IMG/VR virus record: IMGVR_UViG_3300045010_000600
Coordinates: 1-25,696 of that record
Reading direction: 5' to 3' (one strand)
DNA length: 25,696 nucleotides
Source of the DNA: a virus
Shown piece after piece: positions 1,710 through 25,696 of this stretch. A program made the translations under genes and the position numbers. The first letter of the stretch is position 1; each line of letters begins with the position of its first letter. Below the pieces are notes generated by a model. It did not search any database. It was not told the DNA's origin and saw only the letters and a list, made by a program, of their open reading frames with translations.

Positions 1710-2612
1710 ATGATTCGACATTTAGGTTATGCTTGCAAAAATATGACACTTGGTAACAAGGTACTCACAGACCGTACCTTGCGTGAATCTAGATTTACTC
1801 TAGAACGAGTGAATGATCTTGCTCTGAAAAACTCACAAGACCTAGTTCGCATCATGCAGTGGAACGCCGATAACGGAATCAAGTTTTTCCGCATCGGTAG
1901 TGGTCTGTTTCCTTTCATGGATCATCCCAATCACTTTTACAAATTGGAAGATCTAGTCAGTTGGCCGCATATCACCCGCAATATCATAGATGCAGGTAAG
2001 ATTGCAGCAGACAATAGTATTCGTCTGTCATGTCATCCAGGCCCGTACACTTGTCTTGCAAGTCCTGACTCTTTCATAGTTATCAAGTCTGTGAAGACCA
2101 TTCAGATGCACGCCATGCTTGGTAAGATGCTGTGCTGTCCGAATGATGATTTCGTTATCAACTTTCATATGGGTGGTGTATATGGAAACAAACAAGAAAC
2201 CGCCAAGCGATTCCTAAACAACCTAGACACTTTAACAGATTGGGAGCGCAACCACATCACCATCGAAAACGATGACAAGGCTTCCATGTGGAGCATCAGC
2301 GATCTTGTAGAGTATGGTATCGGTAATATGGTTCGCATCGTGTTTGATGTTCACCATCACAGATTTTGTAACCGCGAATCTTTGCACGATGCAGCAGACA
2401 TGGCTTTTGAGACATGGCCTGATGATCAAGTGCCCAAGATTCACTATTCGGAATCTGCCGAAGGTAAGAAACCACAAGCGCATTCTGACTATATCCTTAA
2501 TTCGATCCCAAATAATTTGCACACACGCGATTACGATGTTATGATTGAAGCAAAAGCAAAGGAACTTGCGTTACAAGCATATGTCTCTAAATATGAATTG
2601 TTACATTCGTAA
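1710..2612 (+). CDS. uvsE: UV-damage endonuclease (UvdE/UvsE family)
   Basis: A 300-aa TIM-barrel enzyme of the UvdE family, which nicks DNA 5' of UV photoproducts to start excision repair without a glycosylase. Family signatures run in order: MIRHLGYACKN...RT at the N-terminus; FRIGSGLFP (60-68); SCHPGPYTCLASP (107-119); NFHMGGVYGNK (151-161, metal-binding His); TIENDD (184-189, with the catalytic-site Glu); VFDVHHH (211-217); KIHYSE (243-248); and a C-terminal MIEAKAKELAL helix (278-288). All metal-ligand-type His/Asp/Glu positions appear intact, so an active enzyme is expected. The length is normal for the family. T4 itself uses the unrelated DenV glycosylase for this job. The start matches the family N-terminus; only a weak GGTGG lies upstream. 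A tRNA-Glu begins four bases after the stop. Confidence 0.93.
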   Translation: MIRHLGYACKNMTLGNKVLTDRTLRESRFTLERVNDLALKNSQDLVRIMQWNADNGIKFFRIGSGLFPFMDHPNHFYKLEDLVSWPHITRNIIDAGKIAADNSIRLSCHPGPYTCLASPDSFIVIKSVKTIQMHAMLGKMLCCPNDDFVINFHMGGVYGNKQETAKRFLNNLDTLTDWERNHITIENDDKASMWSISDLVEYGIGNMVRIVFDVHHHRFCNRESLHDAADMAFETWPDDQVPKIHYSESAEGKKPQAHSDYILNSIPNNLHTRDYDVMIEAKAKELALQAYVSKYELLHS

Positions 2613-2615
2613 TAA

Positions 2616-2687
2616 GGGCCTGTCGTCTAGTGGATAGGACAAGAGACTTTCAATCTCTTAACAGGGGTTCAATTCCCCTCAGGCTCA
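2616..2687 (+). tRNA. tRNA-Glu(UUC)
   Basis: Acceptor GGGCCTG (2616-2622) pairs with CAGGCTC (2680-2686), with one G-U and discriminator A2687. The anticodon arm AGAGA/TCTCT (2642-2646/2654-2658) holds loop CTTTCAA with TTC at 2649-2651. The T arm AGGGG/CCCCT (2663-2667/2675-2679) has loop TTCAATT. All stems are sound. CCA is not encoded. It would read GAA, a codon used heavily in this AT-rich genome. Confidence 0.93.
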
Positions 2688-2699
2688 TTGGAATTAACC

Positions 2700-2993
2700 A
2701 TGGCTTACAGTATTCAATATTTTTTTGAGGAAGATTCAAATCGAATAGATGGATTTTTAATTGAAGAATTAATTTCACAATTTAAAGATTGTCGCATCAA
2801 AAAACTTATCAGTGAGACTAAAACCGATCTAGAACAAATTTTTGATCTTAGCGATAACGATGAGGATTATTTTATCTCATTTTGTGAACTAGAAATTATA
2901 TGCGATACTTTAGAATCTTTTGAATCCATACAGCAAAAAATAGAAAAAAAATATGGTATTGTTCCGTTTAGAACAGAATACAAAGAAAAATAA
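2700..2993 (+). CDS. 97-aa acidic protein of unknown function
   Basis: Lies between two tRNA genes: it starts 12 bases after tRNA-Glu and ends four bases before tRNA-Leu. ATG 2700 has a weak site (TTGGA, 2688-2692). A TTG at 2688 in frame would directly abut the tRNA and is less likely. The product is strongly acidic (EEDSNRIDGF; DLSDNDEDYF) with two or three predicted helices and a basic end (KKYGIVPFRTEYKEK). The acidity hints at a DNA mimic or protein-binding adaptor, but no family is recognised. Confidence 0.72.
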   Translation: MAYSIQYFFEEDSNRIDGFLIEELISQFKDCRIKKLISETKTDLEQIFDLSDNDEDYFISFCELEIICDTLESFESIQQKIEKKYGIVPFRTEYKEK

Positions 2994-2997
2994 TTAC

Positions 2998-3070
2998 GCA
3001 GGTGTAGCCCAACGGCAGAGGCAACGGACTTAAAATCCGTACAGTAGGGGTTCGATTCCCCTGACCTGCA
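2998..3070 (+). tRNA. tRNA-Leu(UAA) with short variable loop
   Basis: Acceptor GCAGGTG (2998-3004) pairs with GACCTGC (3063-3069), six pairs plus a G-G at the last position, and discriminator A3070. Anticodon arm ACGGA/TCCGT (3024-3028/3036-3040) has loop CTTAAAA, with TAA at 3031-3033, reading UUA. T arm AGGGG/CCCCT (3046-3050/3058-3062) has loop TTCGATT. The variable region is only five bases (3041-3045), whereas bacterial tRNA-Leu normally has a long class II arm. A73, important for leucyl-tRNA synthetase, is present. Confidence 0.88.
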
Positions 3071-3761: not shown

Positions 3762-4313
3762 ATGCCTACCGCACCGAACAACCCTGAAGACTATGCAGCA
3801 ATGAATGATTTTGGCTTCACAGCAGTTGACGCCGATACCTATAATGCTTCGCAACAAGTGGTCACGCAGCAAACTACACAGCAAGTAGCAGATGAAGTTA
3901 CTGCGGCAGTTGATGATCGCCTCGATAGTATTGACGCAAATCTGCGAGCAATTCTCGACCGGCTATCAGGAGAAAGTGGAGATGGGTTTCCTGCCGCTGC
4001 AACCGATATCGAAAGACTAGAGCGCAAATTGGACGAGATGCTTCAATTGCAGACAGAAGAGTTATATGCTGCAATCAGCGGACAATCTTCCAATATTCGT
4101 GCAGTCATTGATGAGGTAGAAAAGCGTAAAGCGCAGGTGTCAGCAACGTACAAAGCAAAGATGACTGCGGTGGAACAACTAATCATGCCTCTGCTCTACA
4201 ATCTGAAGAAAAATCCTGAAAAGGAATATATTTACTGGCCTAACAGAGAGAATAAGATTCAAGATCAGATCACAAAGATTCTTGCTCTCACCCGTGCTGA
4301 AGTACCTTTATGA
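3762..4313 (+). CDS. coiled-coil protein conserved in marine T4-like phages
   Basis: A 183-aa protein starting one base after the previous stop (AGGAAA upstream) and ending in an ATGA overlap with the next gene, so the three genes from 3108 are probably translated as a coupled set. A disordered Gln/Thr-rich N-terminus is followed by long helices with heptad-like spacing (VADEVTAAVDDRLDSIDANL, about 42-61, and IERLERKLDEMLQLQTEELY, about 83-102). The conserved end is LIMPLLYNLKKNPEKEYIYW (about 140-159), followed by PNRENKI. That ending recurs in marine myoviruses as I recall it, without known function. Likely oligomeric. Confidence 0.85.
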   Translation: MPTAPNNPEDYAAMNDFGFTAVDADTYNASQQVVTQQTTQQVADEVTAAVDDRLDSIDANLRAILDRLSGESGDGFPAAATDIERLERKLDEMLQLQTEELYAAISGQSSNIRAVIDEVEKRKAQVSATYKAKMTAVEQLIMPLLYNLKKNPEKEYIYWPNRENKIQDQITKILALTRAEVPL

Positions 4314-5461
4314 AATCATTTCTATCGTTCATATCAGAATCAAAAAACACACACTTGGAACACTTGGAAGACACGATCTTTCTGAATGGTGTCAAGGGTA
4401 TTGATCTTGCTGTTTCTGTGGTGAATGATGTGATTAAGACTTTGCGCGGAGATTCAAAGAGTGGAGCATTTATTTCAGTGAAATGGGACGGAGCGCCTGC
4501 CGTGATCTGTGGAGAAGATCCACAAACAAAGAAGTTTTTTGTGGCAACCAAGAGCGTCTTCAATAAAACACCAAAGGTCAACTACTCACATGAAGACATT
4601 GACACCAACCACGGGAGATCAGGTGTTGCTGCCAAACTACACGCAGCATTTGATGCTCTAAAAAGCGCAGGAATCCAAGGCATCCTGCAAGGTGACTTGA
4701 TGTTTACTCCAGGCGACATAAAAACACAAAACATTGATGGAGAGAACTACTATACTTTCCAACCAAACACCATCATGTATGCAGTTCTCACCAAGAGCGA
4801 TCTCGGTAAGCGCATTGCTAGATCACAAATAGGAATCGTGTTTCACACAGTATATAAGGGAGCGAACTTCCAATCTCTCAGCGCATCGTTTAACCCAAAC
4901 ATTTCCAACCTAAGAAATAACTCTAAAGCGTGGATTGAAAACGCCTCGTTCATAGACGCAACGGGTATTGCAACCATGACTGCAACCGAAACCAAGCAAC
5001 TAGAGAGATTGCTCACCGATATCCTTGCGTTCAAATCAGACAACGATGTGATAACGGCGCTGTCAACCATTCAAAAAGATTCCACCATGAAAGACGCGGT
5101 GACGCGATACTTCAACAGCAGCATTCGTGCAGGAGTGGATCGGGGATCGGTTCCTGCACTCATCAAGTTTGTGCTAGACCAACCAAAATCAAATCAAGAA
5201 TTGGCACAGCGCATTCGCTCCAATGCAACTGGTCTAAAAAAAGCATTTGATCTACACAAGCGTATTGCTGTTGCCAAGAATATCATAGTAGCAAAGATGA
5301 GTCAGGTCAAAACCATCGGTGCTTTCTATCCAACAGATAGTGGATTTCGTGTTGCTAACCCCGAAGGATTTGTGGCAGTTGCTGCAAAGGGGGTCTACAA
5401 ACTGGTAGATCGTTTAGAATTCTCACGACAGAACTTTACTGCCTTGAAAAACTGGTCTTAA
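4310..5461 (+). CDS. ligase-like nucleotidyltransferase candidate (DUF6267-like)
   Basis: A 383-aa protein of a marine-phage family of unknown function (I recall it as DUF6267). Elements resembling the covalent nucleotidyltransferase fold of DNA/RNA ligases appear in order: KWDGAPAVICG (58-68, motif I KxDG with K58 as candidate nucleotide-accepting lysine), GILQGDLMF (124-132, motif III-like), YAVL and IGIVFHTVYKG (157-184), then a helical insertion (about 200-330), and finally PEGFVAVAAKGVYKLVDRLE (351-370), which resembles motifs IV (EGhV) and V (KL). The start ATG overlaps the previous stop. The second gene downstream is an HxGH-type nucleotidyltransferase, so the pair may act together on a nucleotide or nucleic-acid end. 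The motif assignment is mine and no activity is established. Confidence 0.82.
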   Translation: MKSFLSFISESKNTHLEHLEDTIFLNGVKGIDLAVSVVNDVIKTLRGDSKSGAFISVKWDGAPAVICGEDPQTKKFFVATKSVFNKTPKVNYSHEDIDTNHGRSGVAAKLHAAFDALKSAGIQGILQGDLMFTPGDIKTQNIDGENYYTFQPNTIMYAVLTKSDLGKRIARSQIGIVFHTVYKGANFQSLSASFNPNISNLRNNSKAWIENASFIDATGIATMTATETKQLERLLTDILAFKSDNDVITALSTIQKDSTMKDAVTRYFNSSIRAGVDRGSVPALIKFVLDQPKSNQELAQRIRSNATGLKKAFDLHKRIAVAKNIIVAKMSQVKTIGAFYPTDSGFRVANPEGFVAVAAKGVYKLVDRLEFSRQNFTALKNWS

Positions 5462-5500
5462 TTAGGCATAGATACATTATCTTTAGAAAGGAGATCATAT

Positions 5501-5623
5501 ATGGAAGCAATTCATAGCGCATTGGGTACATTTTTTTATACTGTAGTGGTGTTTGTTGCTGGTGCATTTATTGGCAAACCACTATGGGATTGGGTATCTA
5601 AGCATTTCCCGTGGAACAAGTAA
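5501..5623 (+). CDS. 40-aa membrane peptide
   Basis: AGAAAGGAG (5486-5494) six bases before ATG 5501 is a near-perfect ribosome-binding site. The product (MEAIHSALGTFFYTVVVFVA and on to FPWNK) has one hydrophobic segment at about 9-26 followed by a Trp-rich amphipathic tail (KPLWDWVSKHFPWNK). It ends 44 bases before the next likely start. Probably an inserted inner-membrane microprotein; function unknown. Confidence 0.7.
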   Translation: MEAIHSALGTFFYTVVVFVAGAFIGKPLWDWVSKHFPWNK

Positions 5624-5667
5624 ATAGTTAATTGCCATCTGAAGTAGGGGTAGGAAATGATCCAGCC

Positions 5668-7011
5668 ATGAAGTACGGCGATTGGAAGGCAAAGAGCGAT
5701 ACTGATGCACTCAACGAATCGTTGAAGGGCAAAACTGTCGTATTCACTTTCGGTCGTTTCCAACCCCCTACATCTGGACATCAAAAACTTGTTGATGCTA
5801 TTGTAAGCACGGCATCTAGTGTGGGAGGGCAGGCAATGCTCTATCCTGCTCGCTCCATTGATGCAAAAAAGAATCCACTAAATCCCGGCGTAAAGATCAA
5901 GTGGCTACGAAAGTTCTTCGGGGACAAGGTAAATATCATGGATGACTCTGGCGCAAAGACCATGTTCGATGTAATGAACAAGTTCCAGCGTGAAGGAGTT
6001 AAGAAGGTTATCATGGTTGTGGGTGGAGATCGTGTGAACGAGATGCGAAACACAATCAAACCATATCTGACACATAAAGATCCTAATAAGCGATACTCAT
6101 TTGAGTTTGAAGTGGTTAGTGCAGGTGAGCGCGATCCCGATGCTGAAGGAGTTGTCGGAATGTCTGCAAGCAAGATGCGCGCCGCTGCCGCAGAAAACAA
6201 TATGAGCGCATTCATGGGAGGTATTCCAAGTGGAGTATCTAAATCAGATGCAGAATCTCTATTCAAAGAATTACGCAGAGCAATGAATGCTAAAAGTGTG
6301 GTTGAGTCTGTTGATATTGATTCTTTGATAGAAATTGGTCAATTGGTACGCATAGATTCCAATGTAAGATTCTGGTTAGATGAAGTAAATGAGATTTACT
6401 ATGCAGTAGAAACCGACTCAGAAGGAAACAGCACAGAGGGTGGATACGGAACATTGGAAACCATGCTTTCCATGTATCCCGGATCGTGGAGTGTTCTAAA
6501 AGGTCAAATCAGAAATATTGTTAGTAGAAGAGCAAAGGCGAGAAGAGTTGATGGAGATGAAGACGGTAGCCTTAAATCGCCGCCCGAACCACCTTACCCA
6601 CCGTCTGTGGGTGAATCTACGCTACTCAAACCGTGGATGCTACAACTTCAATCGTTAAGAGAAGTTATTGCTATTGGAGTAATGCCGAGCATCGAATACA
6701 TTGCATCCGTGCCATGCAGTAAGCGCAAACTTCCGATGAGACTATTGCGCTCCACACGGTATGTCGATCCTATGGTAAAAAATCTGCAATTTGGGAAAAA
6801 AGAAGCAGAAGAGGCGATTGCAGACAATCATATGCTCAAGTTCAACAAAGCATATCTTGAGTTTGCCAATCTATTTATTACTGCGGCAGACACAGGAAAA
6901 GAATCAGACTGGAAAGCAGCACAGCAAAATCTGTGCAAAAACTATTCAATTATTCAGAGTGGATTACCAACCGAGATATCAGCATTATTATTGAGTGGAC
7001 CTGCACCGTAA
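5668..7011 (+). CDS. adenylyl/cytidylyltransferase-like protein with unknown C-terminal half
   Basis: A 447-aa protein. The N-terminal half is a nucleotidylyltransferase of the HxGH superfamily (the NMN adenylyltransferase and cytidylyltransferase group): VVFTFGRFQPPTSGHQKLVD (24-43) with the GxFxPxxxGH site, VVGGDR (117-122) and GMSASKMR (164-171), equivalent to ISxTxxR. These enzymes transfer NMP from NTP to a phosphate acceptor. The second half (about 210-447) matches nothing I know: an acidic WLDEVNEIYYAVETDSEG segment, a Pro-rich linker PPEPPYPPS (about 305-313), then helices. Start choice: ATG 5668. A TTG at 5632 directly follows an in-frame stop and lacks a ribosome-binding site. The substrate is unknown. 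Confidence 0.87.
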   Translation: MKYGDWKAKSDTDALNESLKGKTVVFTFGRFQPPTSGHQKLVDAIVSTASSVGGQAMLYPARSIDAKKNPLNPGVKIKWLRKFFGDKVNIMDDSGAKTMFDVMNKFQREGVKKVIMVVGGDRVNEMRNTIKPYLTHKDPNKRYSFEFEVVSAGERDPDAEGVVGMSASKMRAAAAENNMSAFMGGIPSGVSKSDAESLFKELRRAMNAKSVVESVDIDSLIEIGQLVRIDSNVRFWLDEVNEIYYAVETDSEGNSTEGGYGTLETMLSMYPGSWSVLKGQIRNIVSRRAKARRVDGDEDGSLKSPPEPPYPPSVGESTLLKPWMLQLQSLREVIAIGVMPSIEYIASVPCSKRKLPMRLLRSTRYVDPMVKNLQFGKKEAEEAIADNHMLKFNKAYLEFANLFITAADTGKESDWKAAQQNLCKNYSIIQSGLPTEISALLLSGPAP

Positions 7012-7729: not shown

Positions 7730-8047
7730 ATGGAAGAAAATACACCAATAAACAGTCTTTCTTCTAATAATATTCAGGGGGTTCAACCCGAAGGTCCTCC
7801 TGTAATTCAGGGAACCTTTGCAGGGTGTAAAGTGTTTGATGTAGACTCCGACACATTCTATAAGTGCATTTATGGCGCCAAGACTCCACAAGCCAGATGG
7901 AAACGATTTGTAGACTTGGAAACTCCTACTGGAAATGCGATCAGAGACTACTCTTACAAATCGCCAGGAAGACATATCATTGTACACAATCCCCAAACGG
8001 GACAGATGAGTTACATTAAGCGCGGGCAGCCTAGGAGTAAACCATAA
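7730..8047 (+). CDS. 105-aa protein upstream of the baseplate hub gene
   Basis: ATG 7730 follows GGGAG (7718-7722) by seven bases, and the stop TAA (8045-8047) shares its last A with the next ATG, implying coupled translation with the hub gene. The N-terminus is disordered. The body (IQGTFAGCKVFDVDSDTFYK; ARWKRFVDLETP; PGRHIIVHNPQTGQMSYIKR) looks like a small beta-rich domain. The pattern resembles small conserved proteins at this place in related phages, without known function. A virion or assembly factor is a reasonable guess from context only. Confidence 0.8.
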   Translation: MEENTPINSLSSNNIQGVQPEGPPVIQGTFAGCKVFDVDSDTFYKCIYGAKTPQARWKRFVDLETPTGNAIRDYSYKSPGRHIIVHNPQTGQMSYIKRGQPRSKP

Positions 8048-9396
8048 TGGACATACTGCACCGTGACTTTGTTGGACATTCGTTTATTTGGTGGCAAGGA
8101 GTTGTCGAAGATAATCTTGATCCACTACAACTTGGTCGGTGTAGGGTTCGTATTCTAGGATTTCATACCAGCGACAAAAAAGATATTCCCACCGATAAAT
8201 TGCCATGGGCATATCCCATTCAACCAACCACAAGTGCAGCAATCAGTGGTATAGGTTATTCTCCTACTGGATTGGTGCCTGGATCATGGGTGATTGGATT
8301 TTTCAGAGATGGTGCGAATGCTCAAGAGCCTGTTATATTCGGTAGCATCGGTGGCATTCCCGAAGAGAAAGCAAATACTAAAAAAGGATTCAATGATCCT
8401 CGCAAATGCGACGAATTAAAAACTATTCCTAAAGATGAATTTACCATCCAAGAATATCCACAAGATGGTCGTGGTGCCATTTTACAAAACACACCAGAAG
8501 GTAAAACCTATCCAAAGCACATTGGAGATGGTCCGCACCAAGCAAGACTGAACGAACAAGATACCAATAGGCTAGCAAGAGGATGCAAAACAGATGAAAC
8601 TATCATTGGCTTAAAACGAAGAACTGCTAAAAAGAAAATTCCAACTGCACTACAACCATCGCGTAACAAAACCGTTCCTGCTGCTGATCCTGCTGTTGGA
8701 GGGTCTGTAAGGACCAAAAGCAATGATGGTTTAGAGTGGGATGAACGCAAAAGTGACTATGCAGCAGAGTATCCATACAACCATGTACGCCAGTCCGAAT
8801 CAGGGCATACATGGGAATGCGACGATACTCCAGACGCAGAGCGCATATCAGAATATCATCGAAGCGGAACTCATTATGAAATATTTCCTGATGGAAGCAA
8901 AGTGGAACGCATTGTGCGCGACAACTATACGGTGATTCTCAAAGACGATCATGTTCAGATTGATGGCAATACCTATGTCACCATAGACAAGGCTCTTCGT
9001 ATTCTACAGAATACAGATCAAGAATCTGGGAAAAACTTTGATGTTCAGGTTGGGCAAGGTGCAAATGTAAATATAGAGGTTATGAAAGGTAGTGTTAATC
9101 TGACATTGCACGATGGGGACTATAACGCATATGTGAACGGAAATTATACGCTGGATGTCACAGGAAACATGACTGAAAGAATTGGAAAAAAACGATTCTC
9201 TCATTCGGGTGCAGATACACACATCAAGACTAACAAGACTTACATATTGGAAGCAACTAAAAATATCCTAGAATCCTGCGGAGGATTCCGAGACATGAAA
9301 ACTGGACTTTATACCGCATTAAAGTCTGGTCAATATCATCGTTTCGTGAGCCAAGCAAACACAATCATTCGCGGTGCAACCATTCAACTGAATTAA
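8047..9396 (+). CDS. 5: baseplate hub / central spike protein, gp5-like, no lysozyme domain
   Basis: The trimeric hub-spike protein at the tip of the tail tube. Residues about 15-113 are the gp5/VgrG OB-fold: WWQGVVEDNLDPLQLGRCRV, LPWAYPIQP, GIGYSPTGLVPGSWVIGFFRDG, QEPVIFGSIGGIPEE. A long polar linker (about 115-235) follows. The C-terminal part (about 265-449) is built of short beta repeats (FPDGSKVERIVRDNYTVILK; VEVMKGSVNLTL-like; GDYNAYVNGNYTLDVTGNMT), as in the gp5 beta-helix needle. T4 gp5 (575 aa) has a lysozyme domain between OB and helix. Here (449 aa) no lysozyme motif is seen, so peptidoglycan must be opened by another protein or not at all. AGGAG at 8033-8037 serves its start. The next gene is the PAAR tip that caps this spike. 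Confidence 0.93.
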   Translation: MDILHRDFVGHSFIWWQGVVEDNLDPLQLGRCRVRILGFHTSDKKDIPTDKLPWAYPIQPTTSAAISGIGYSPTGLVPGSWVIGFFRDGANAQEPVIFGSIGGIPEEKANTKKGFNDPRKCDELKTIPKDEFTIQEYPQDGRGAILQNTPEGKTYPKHIGDGPHQARLNEQDTNRLARGCKTDETIIGLKRRTAKKKIPTALQPSRNKTVPAADPAVGGSVRTKSNDGLEWDERKSDYAAEYPYNHVRQSESGHTWECDDTPDAERISEYHRSGTHYEIFPDGSKVERIVRDNYTVILKDDHVQIDGNTYVTIDKALRILQNTDQESGKNFDVQVGQGANVNIEVMKGSVNLTLHDGDYNAYVNGNYTLDVTGNMTERIGKKRFSHSGADTHIKTNKTYILEATKNILESCGGFRDMKTGLYTALKSGQYHRFVSQANTIIRGATIQLN

Positions 9397-24876: not shown

Positions 24877-25696
24877 ATGAAAAATCACAAACTACCATCT
24901 AATCCATCAACACCAGTCACGGGATCAAGCAATTTGTTTGTACGAGCAGCGACAGAGAATAACCTGTCTCCTAGAGTGATGCCATCCGCCTTATTTGGGG
25001 CAGGGAAAATTGATGCTATAACTGCTAAAAGAAAAGCAAAGGCTGATGCAAGGGAAATAACTAGTAAATTTGAATCACTAACAGAAAGAATCTCACAATT
25101 AGAACTAATTCTTAGAAATAATGGTCTAATTTTACCCACTCCCACTCCCACTCCCACACGAACTGTAACACCCACTCCCACACGAACTGTAACCACTCCC
25201 ACTCCCACACGAACTGTAACACCCACTCCCACACGAACTGTAACACCCACTCCCACACGAACTGTAACACCCACTCCCACACGAACTGTAACGCCAACAG
25301 TAACACCCACAGTAACACCAACACGAACGCCAACAGTTACAGTAACACCCACAGTAACGCCGACGCCGCCTGCACCAACGGTGGATCCGCCGCCAGTAAC
25401 ACCAACCCTGACGCCGACGCTGACGCCGCCACCTCCACCTCCACCGCCTCCTCCACCGCCGCCACCGCCGCCTCCTCCACCGCCTCCTCCACCGCCGCCA
25501 CCGCCGCCACCTCCACCTCCACCGCCGCCACCGCCGCCACCTCCACCGCCGCCAGTAACACCAACCCTGACGCCGACGCCGACGCCGACGCCGCCTGCAC
25601 CAACGGTGGATCCGCCGCCAGTAACACCAACCCTGACGCCGACGCTGACGCCGCCACCTCCACCTCCACCGCCTCCTCCACCGCCGCCACCGCCGC
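24877..25696 (+). CDS. Thr/Pro- and poly-Pro-rich tail-associated protein, cut by the window end
   Basis: ATG 24877, three bases after the previous stop, opens a frame that stays open to the window edge (at least 273 codons). Residues 1-45 are a linker with SPRVMPSALFGAGKID. About 46-82 is a helix likely to coil (ITAKRKAKADAREITSKFES, LTERISQLELILRN). Then comes repeat sequence only: TPTPTRTV units, TVTPTVTP units, and a run of 43 consecutive prolines (25426-25554), a TPTLTPTPT spacer with APTVDPPP, and a second Pro run of at least 15. Related phages place a small coil protein after the giant structural protein, often joined to fibre genes. Here it may be a long rigid stalk. Codon choice turns GC-rich in the repeats, unlike the neighbours. 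No strong ribosome-binding site; a small hairpin (24859-24874) lies just upstream. Confidence 0.8.
   Translation, partial: MKNHKLPSNPSTPVTGSSNLFVRAATENNLSPRVMPSALFGAGKIDAITAKRKAKADAREITSKFESLTERISQLELILRNNGLILPTPTPTPTRTVTPTPTRTVTTPTPTRTVTPTPTRTVTPTPTRTVTPTPTRTVTPTVTPTVTPTRTPTVTVTPTVTPTPPAPTVDPPPVTPTLTPTLTPPPPPPPPPPPPPPPPPPPPPPPPPPPPPPPPPPPPPPPPPPPVTPTLTPTPTPTPPAPTVDPPPVTPTLTPTLTPPPPPPPPPPPPPPP
25135..25290 (+). repeat. 24-bp tandem repeats encoding TPTPTRTV
   Basis: Six copies end in ACACGAACTGTA at intervals of 24, 27, 24, 24 and 24 bases (GTA codons at 25165, 25189, 25216, 25240, 25264, 25288). All steps are multiples of three, so the frame is kept. Near-identity of the copies points to recent expansion. 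Confidence 0.92.
25357..25696 (+). repeat. 225-bp period direct repeat with poly-proline tract
   Basis: Bases 25357-25471 are identical to 25582-25696, an offset of 225 bp (75 codons). The second copy runs off the window, so more copies may follow. Each unit holds a PPAPTVDPPPVTPTLTPTLT segment followed by a poly-proline run made of CCG, CCA and CCT codons in mixed order with no CCC. Confidence 0.93.

Follow-up and report, generated by a model that had tools for sequence, protein, structure and literature searches.

The window analysed here, a stretch of 25,696 nucleotides comprising positions 1-25,696 of IMG/VR virus record IMGVR_UViG_3300045010_000600, belongs to a T4-like myovirus and carries, on one strand, a gene for a protein of the DUF6267 family followed by one for a nucleotidyltransferase of the HIGH superfamily, with a short gene for a predicted membrane peptide between them (Table 1). 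A sequence-only reading had picked out KWDG, EGFV and YKLV (residues 363-366) in the first protein and GRFQPPTSGH and GMSASKMR in the second, and all five stand exactly as described in the respective open reading frames (ORFs) of 383 and 447 amino acids (aa). It took the first three for motifs I, IV and V of covalent nucleotidyltransferases and suggested that the two enzymes, in a region otherwise concerned with virion assembly, jointly make or attach a nucleotide.

The DUF6267 protein

The first of the two proteins is matched by the DUF6267 profile (PF19782; the family is also named PHROG 455) over profile positions 1-375 of 376, with an E-value of 1.2e-98 and 331 bits against a cut-off of 27. 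Of the profile checks that had been proposed, this one succeeded and those with ligases did not: the profiles of T4-type RNA ligases (PF09414 and PF09511) gave no match to the window protein at E-values up to 1, and on sequence it is not filed as a member of the T4-type RNA ligase family.

We aligned 118 DUF6267 proteins, diverse in sequence and drawn from viral as well as genome collections. Residues K58, D60, G61, Q127, D129, E352, G353, K364 and R368 are invariant among them, as are further positions, for instance N153, Y157, H179 and T180. Both the order and the secondary structure agree with covalent-nucleotidyltransferase motifs I, III, IV and V: a KxDG lysine motif (K58, D60, G61) is followed by acidic residues in the places of motifs III and IV (D129 and E352) and by a motif V lysine (K364). 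The motif assignments made earlier are thus upheld as more than a chance likeness, with D129, in a motif III-like QGD, as an addition, and the order of the motifs suggests that K58 is the equivalent of the ligase lysine.

The confident AlphaFold2 model of the protein (predicted local distance difference test score 91.4, predicted template modelling score 0.87) has a helical insertion at residues 225-330, as the sequence-only reading had supposed; in a short form of DUF6267, of ~300 aa, this insertion is shorter. Candidate folds from the PDB were collected with Foldseek and re-aligned by VIA, and the best 50 entries were considered. All 50 entries listed are RNA or DNA ligases, with RNA ligases topmost: the best match is a Naegleria ligase (Z 8.9, root-mean-square deviation [rmsd] 3.5 over 180 residues), REL1, T4 Rnl2 and T4 Rnl1 reach Z 8.0, 7.7 and 7.4, and the rows of T4 gp30-type DNA ligases lie at Z 5-6. 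Every significant match among predicted viral structures is to a DUF6267 member or fusion, one of them a remote relative from Pseudomonas phage PA5oct; annotated RNA ligases rank next, at non-significant E-values. Model and alignment therefore give good support to a ligase-like fold of the covalent-nucleotidyltransferase kind, whose candidate active site is invariant, and two earlier expectations, a ligase-related fold and the conservation of K58, E352 and K364, have held.

The HIGH-superfamily partner and the gene pair

The second protein matches the phage 'cytidyltransferase' families phrog_3041 (E 1e-53) and phrog_395. A third family, phrog_455, implies natural fusions of the two proteins, since its first half is matched by DUF6267 and its second half by the HIGH protein. 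Its model is good over residues ~20-210, the catalytic domain, with a C-terminal part outside the recognised domain, and aligns with PPAT (Z 14.3, rmsd 2.9 over 154 residues) and NadD-type enzymes (Z 13.7). By its HxGH/TxGH and ISSTxxR-like motifs and its predicted Rossmann-like fold, the protein is a HIGH-superfamily nucleotidyltransferase. It has the fold and both catalytic motifs of PPAT/CoaD, NadD/NMNAT, FAD synthetase and TmcAL, but differs from them in the extra C-terminal part and in the pairing with DUF6267; the NadD, NadR, PPAT, FAD synthetase and TmcAL families each match it weakly, and no specific family does so above its curated cut-off.

The linkage of the two genes was assessed in 77 non-redundant loci of the long DUF6267 form with at least 3 kb of downstream sequence, and in 43 with at least 5 kb upstream. 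A HIGH domain lies downstream of DUF6267 on the same strand in 57 of the 77, on the opposite strand in none, and upstream in none of the 43; several of the remaining contigs carry it farther from DUF6267. The two are fused into a single protein in the resequenced S-PM2 (one intact 592-aa ORF, S-PM2d138, at 3995-5770 of locus L163 from LN828717) and in the metagenomic contigs L156 and L157. The older S-PM2 record has two genes instead, p141 and p142 (4995-6774 of locus L043 from NC_006820), a split that is probably a sequencing frameshift, since the resequenced ORF is intact. The co-occurrence that the sequence-only reading had wished to see checked is thus found, sometimes as fusion, and linkage and fusion together support a common pathway of DUF6267 and the HIGH enzyme. 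The membrane peptide seen between the genes is probably a real gene as well, given its ribosome-binding site (AAAGGAGAT) and its retention in four relatives with mostly synonymous differences; in distant relatives it is no part of the pair.

The supposed association with virion assembly, on the other hand, does not extend to most relatives: their pair is part of the replication module, with UvsX and the gp41 primase-helicase upstream of it, and does not stand among virion genes; neighbours of DUF6267 include gp43, UvsX and gp41. In some phages an adenylate kinase gene (PF00406) lies directly downstream of DUF6267 (1227-1850 in L082, 7185-7793 in L117), which is consistent with AMP release. Upstream neighbours come from many families; several resemble PD-(D/E)XK nucleases by eye, and because Pfam confirms just one cluster of them (PF12705), we propose no nuclease step.

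Could the two proteins nonetheless have separate roles, DUF6267 acting in repair or replication and the HIGH protein travelling in the virion as a multidomain effector that changes host metabolism, NAD levels for instance? The genes lie far apart in P-SSM2, S-SCSM1, S-N03 and ACG-2014f, and the HIGH protein occurs on its own, with no DUF6267, in Cr30 and several jumbo phages. HIGH-domain ORFs of other phages range from 191 to 1,801 codons with varied extra domains, among them SET, RimK with a Zn protease, PAP2, Pol-beta and DUF192, and a cytidylyltransferase has been detected in the virion of cyanophage S-CREM2 (PMC10665884). The varied fused domains and the S-CREM2 finding make a virion-carried role of the window's HIGH protein possible. 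The strict order and strand of the genes, their fusions and the retention of both even when unlinked speak against separate roles, which we hold to be rather unlikely. The ~300-aa form of DUF6267 is often unlinked, and four such phages still have the HIGH gene.

Some HIGH-domain homologues are long and combine unrelated enzymatic domains, as polyvalent phage proteins do (PMC5512222), whereas the window protein has 447 aa and one recognised domain. Long HIGH-domain ORFs are found in L062 (2126-7528), L049 (5531-8671), L081 (4208-7600) and L046 (3242-6040). HNH is a further extra domain, and 16 of 69 HIGH-domain proteins have a Pol-beta-type match (PF01909).

Phage distribution and proposed function

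Among the phage records searched, DUF6267 is present in about 470, mostly T4-like cyanophages. The ligase complement was surveyed in 20 phage genome records with Pfam profiles, which may miss divergent ligases. Rnl1, Rnl2 and NAD+-dependent ligase were each recognised in 0 of 14 DUF6267 phages, and an ATP-dependent DNA ligase in one (Stenotrophomonas phage DLP_6), so that 13 of the 14 have no recognisable ATP- or NAD+-dependent DNA ligase. All six phages without detected DUF6267 have a DNA ligase, and five of them have both RNA ligases, the exception being Pseudomonas phage phi30-2. A DUF6267 profile search of six whole genomes gave no match; a motif scan made after a structural match revealed that phi30-2 encodes a 449-aa protein with KIDG, EGYV and KIVD, which means that the profile misses remote members and that absence of DUF6267 elsewhere is not proven. 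Aligned via its PA5oct orthologue, the phi30-2 protein shares the PN-x-I-x-Y signature of the family, which is not a general ligase motif. With phi30-2 counted, none of the 15 phages that have DUF6267 or a relative carries a recognisable Rnl1 or Rnl2, whereas all 5 others do.

The phi30-2-type relative is present in 11 Pseudomonas records, the same number as have a HIGH domain. Sinorhizobium phage Phosso has a DUF6267 relative, whose sole Pfam match is RNA_ligase (E 0.085), together with a weak HIGH-domain match; in PA5oct and Phosso the gene of the relative comes shortly after that of a DnaB-like helicase. DNA ligase shows less complementarity than the RNA ligases do: one accompanies DUF6267 or a relative in DLP_6, in phi30-2 and in contig G016, which is related to the window's phage. 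A broad tblastn search with T4 Rnl1, Rnl2, gp30 and the Cr30 DNA ligase returned no cyanophage among its ten commonest names, which bounds the absence of these enzymes rather than proving it.

The computed fold, the invariant residues, the linkage and fusions of the genes and the failure to recognise T4-type RNA ligases in the DUF6267 phages tested lead us to a proposal in which we place about even confidence: DUF6267 would be a divergent lysyl-AMP polynucleotide ligase, likelier of RNA than of DNA, with the HIGH enzyme acting as an adenylyltransferase in the same pathway. K58 would take AMP from a donor, most simply ATP, to give lysyl-AMP, while D129, E352, K364 and R368 would bind metal and phosphates; AMP would then be handed to a 5'-phosphate end, and the adenylylated end joined to a 3'-OH as AMP leaves. 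The HIGH enzyme might prepare the end, or supply or recycle the nucleotide. The place of the gene after the replicative helicase, the weak RNA_ligase match in Phosso and the adenylate kinase neighbours also speak for the proposal. Adenylylation, ligation, the choice of RNA over DNA and the link between the two reactions are what we infer; structure and distribution favour RNA, and neither decides.

With the RNA ligases at the head of the structural ranking (Naegleria Rnl, REL1, T4 Rnl2 and T4 Rnl1), DUF6267 shares the predicted fold, the order of motifs I, III, IV and V, KxDG and EG[FY]V. It also departs from them, and several observations weigh against a ligase. Motif III has D, family-wide, where ligases have E; motif V is K-[LI]-V-x-R, with a single lysine and the invariant R368 in place of K-x-K. 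Since K-x-K is common in the superfamily and not strictly defining, we claim membership as a divergent one. The N-terminal OB and C-terminal domains by which known ligases grip nucleic acid are absent; the insertion at 225-330 and the linked or fused HIGH enzyme are further differences. No profile relationship is detectable: when 28 homologues were used for a sequence-profile search of the PDB, no ligase came up, and comparison of the DUF6267 profile with T4-type Rnl1, Rnl2 and DNA ligases was not significant, a result that is uninformative because the positive control, Rnl1 against DNA ligase, likewise failed (in the same comparison K58 and D129 fall in register with K35 and E99 of Rnl2, at E 0.14). 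Foldseek alone gives no PDB match below E 0.001 for the model, the weak matches including T4 RNA ligase 1, a capping enzyme and DNA ligases, and a Z near 9 is modest by itself; as model-based evidence, we take the uniformity of the VIA list to be the stronger signal. Finally, the comparison covers no more than some five or six independent phage lineages, and in one paper a 'ligase' appears in the gene list of S-CREM2.

What, then, of the DNA ligase that marine T4-like phages seem to lack? According to a 2010 review, g30 homologues have not been found in any cyanomyovirus, and RNase H has been found in S-PM2 alone; the review left open distant, unrecognised homologues and favoured true absence, with a host enzyme substituting (PMC2984593). 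DUF6267 might be this replicative ligase, sealing Okazaki fragments instead of T4 gp30: 13 of the 14 DUF6267 phages surveyed have no other that is recognisable, and it has the superfamily fold of the gp30-type ATP-dependent enzymes (PF01068) and, like them, a setting beside replication genes (gp43, UvsX, gp41). It differs from them in lacking the OB domain that follows their nucleotidyltransferase domain, since the protein ends 19 residues past motif V, and DLP_6 and G016 contain it alongside a true PF01068 ligase, which weakens any strict replacement; phi30-2 likewise combines a DNA ligase with the distant relative, RNA ligases top the structural ranking, and the host ligase could serve, as the review suggests. 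We consider this role unlikely.

A further alternative is that DUF6267 attaches a nucleotide without sealing, as a capping-type or a protein or small-molecule nucleotidyltransferase working together with the HIGH enzyme. Capping enzymes have the same fold and motifs, the extra domains by which ligases grip nicks are missing, and the constant partner is another nucleotidyltransferase. The nearest structures, however, are RNA ligases, the distribution of DUF6267 mirrors theirs, and no partner of capping, such as a triphosphatase or a guanine methyltransferase, was identified beside it, so that this alternative appears quite unlikely. Given the distribution, the position in the replication module and the adjoining adenylate kinase, end joining fits at least as well as capping. 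Of the suggestion that the pair jointly makes or attaches a nucleotide, the common pathway survives; a joint reaction would be a conjecture beyond it, and capping has no specific support. Very improbable, in our estimation, is a self-recycling NAD+-dependent ligase, in which DUF6267 would draw its AMP from NAD+, setting NMN free, from which the HIGH enzyme would remake NAD+ with ATP; a ligase joined to its own cofactor regeneration would, if true, be a new arrangement.

The ligase-like reading of DUF6267 invites comparison with RNA-repair modules in which an RNA ligase has a nucleotidyltransferase partner, the Pol-beta-type RlaP, whereas DUF6267 has a HIGH enzyme as its constant partner; excerpts of PMC7824862 and PMC9503650 contained no ligase-HIGH pair. 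The literature searched yielded no described function for DUF6267, for all that the family is named, and the terms 'DUF6267' and 'cytitidyltransferase' were not encountered in it. The results point to an undescribed pairing, kept across several phage groups, in which a ligase-like enzyme is joined by a HIGH adenylyltransferase. T4-like cyanophages have kept T4 replication proteins with the DNA ligase reported missing, and DUF6267, a concrete candidate for a ligase in cyanomyoviruses, may be the one that these viruses were thought to lack. With the candidate and its active-site residues named, the question can be tested with one purified protein.

Other features of the window

Table 1. Features of the DUF6267-HIGH locus (window coordinates) and of distant relatives (coordinates of the records named)
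Feature	Position	Strand	Basis or remark
183-aa coiled-coil-rich protein	3762..4313	+	stop overlaps DUF6267 start (ATGA)
DUF6267 protein, 383 aa, proposed lysyl-AMP polynucleotide ligase	4310..5461	+	PF19782, AlphaFold2 model, structural matches
Motif I KWDG (58-61); K58, proposed nucleotide-accepting lysine	4481..4492	+	K58, D60, G61 invariant
Motif III-like QGD (127-129)	4688..4696	+	Q127, D129 invariant; within model strand 125-132
HT (179-180), place of motif IIIa	4844..4849	+	invariant; motif IIIa suggested by order and strand
Inserted helical region, residues 225-330, between motifs III and IV	4982..5299	+	model secondary structure
Motif IV EGFV (352-355)	5363..5374	+	E352, G353 invariant
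Motif V KLVDR (364-368)	5399..5413	+	K364, R368 invariant
40-aa predicted membrane peptide gene	5501..5623	+	ribosome-binding site, conservation in four close relatives
HIGH-superfamily nucleotidyltransferase (cytidylyltransferase-like), 447 aa from conserved ATG	5668..7011	+	phrog_3041 E 1e-53, model matches
GRFQPPTSGH (29-38), HIGH motif	5752..5781	+	G29, G37, H38 invariant; R30, P33, P34, T35 nearly
MSASKMR, place of ISSTxxR motif (GMSASKMR, 164-171)	6160..6180	+	S166 invariant; A167, K169, R171 nearly
Distant DUF6267-like protein, phi30-2	LC727697 163702-165048	-	motif scan, outside Pfam model
Distant DUF6267-like proteins, Pseudomonas Wroclawvirus phages and Sinorhizobium phage Phosso	L211 4010-5350; L210 2501-3736		outside Pfam model

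The family of the 183-aa coiled-coil-rich protein (cluster 4) occurs in 34 loci and directly adjoins DUF6267 in 27 of them. Farther upstream, the window encodes a DUF5872 protein (792-1667) with a C-terminal RARHNC...YWACKDLW segment that recurs in a DUF6267 neighbour of L046 (41-1003), in phrog_220 and in phrog_7595, followed at 1710-3070 by a UvdE-type UV endonuclease gene (1710-2612), a tRNA-Glu (2616-2687) and a tRNA-Leu (2998-3070). Downstream of the pair lies a homologue of the baseplate hub protein gp5 (8047-9396), in which Pfam recognises an OB domain and a C-terminal repeat and no lysozyme domain, and at 25100-25696 a long low-complexity coding tract of TPTPTRTV and poly-proline runs past the window end.

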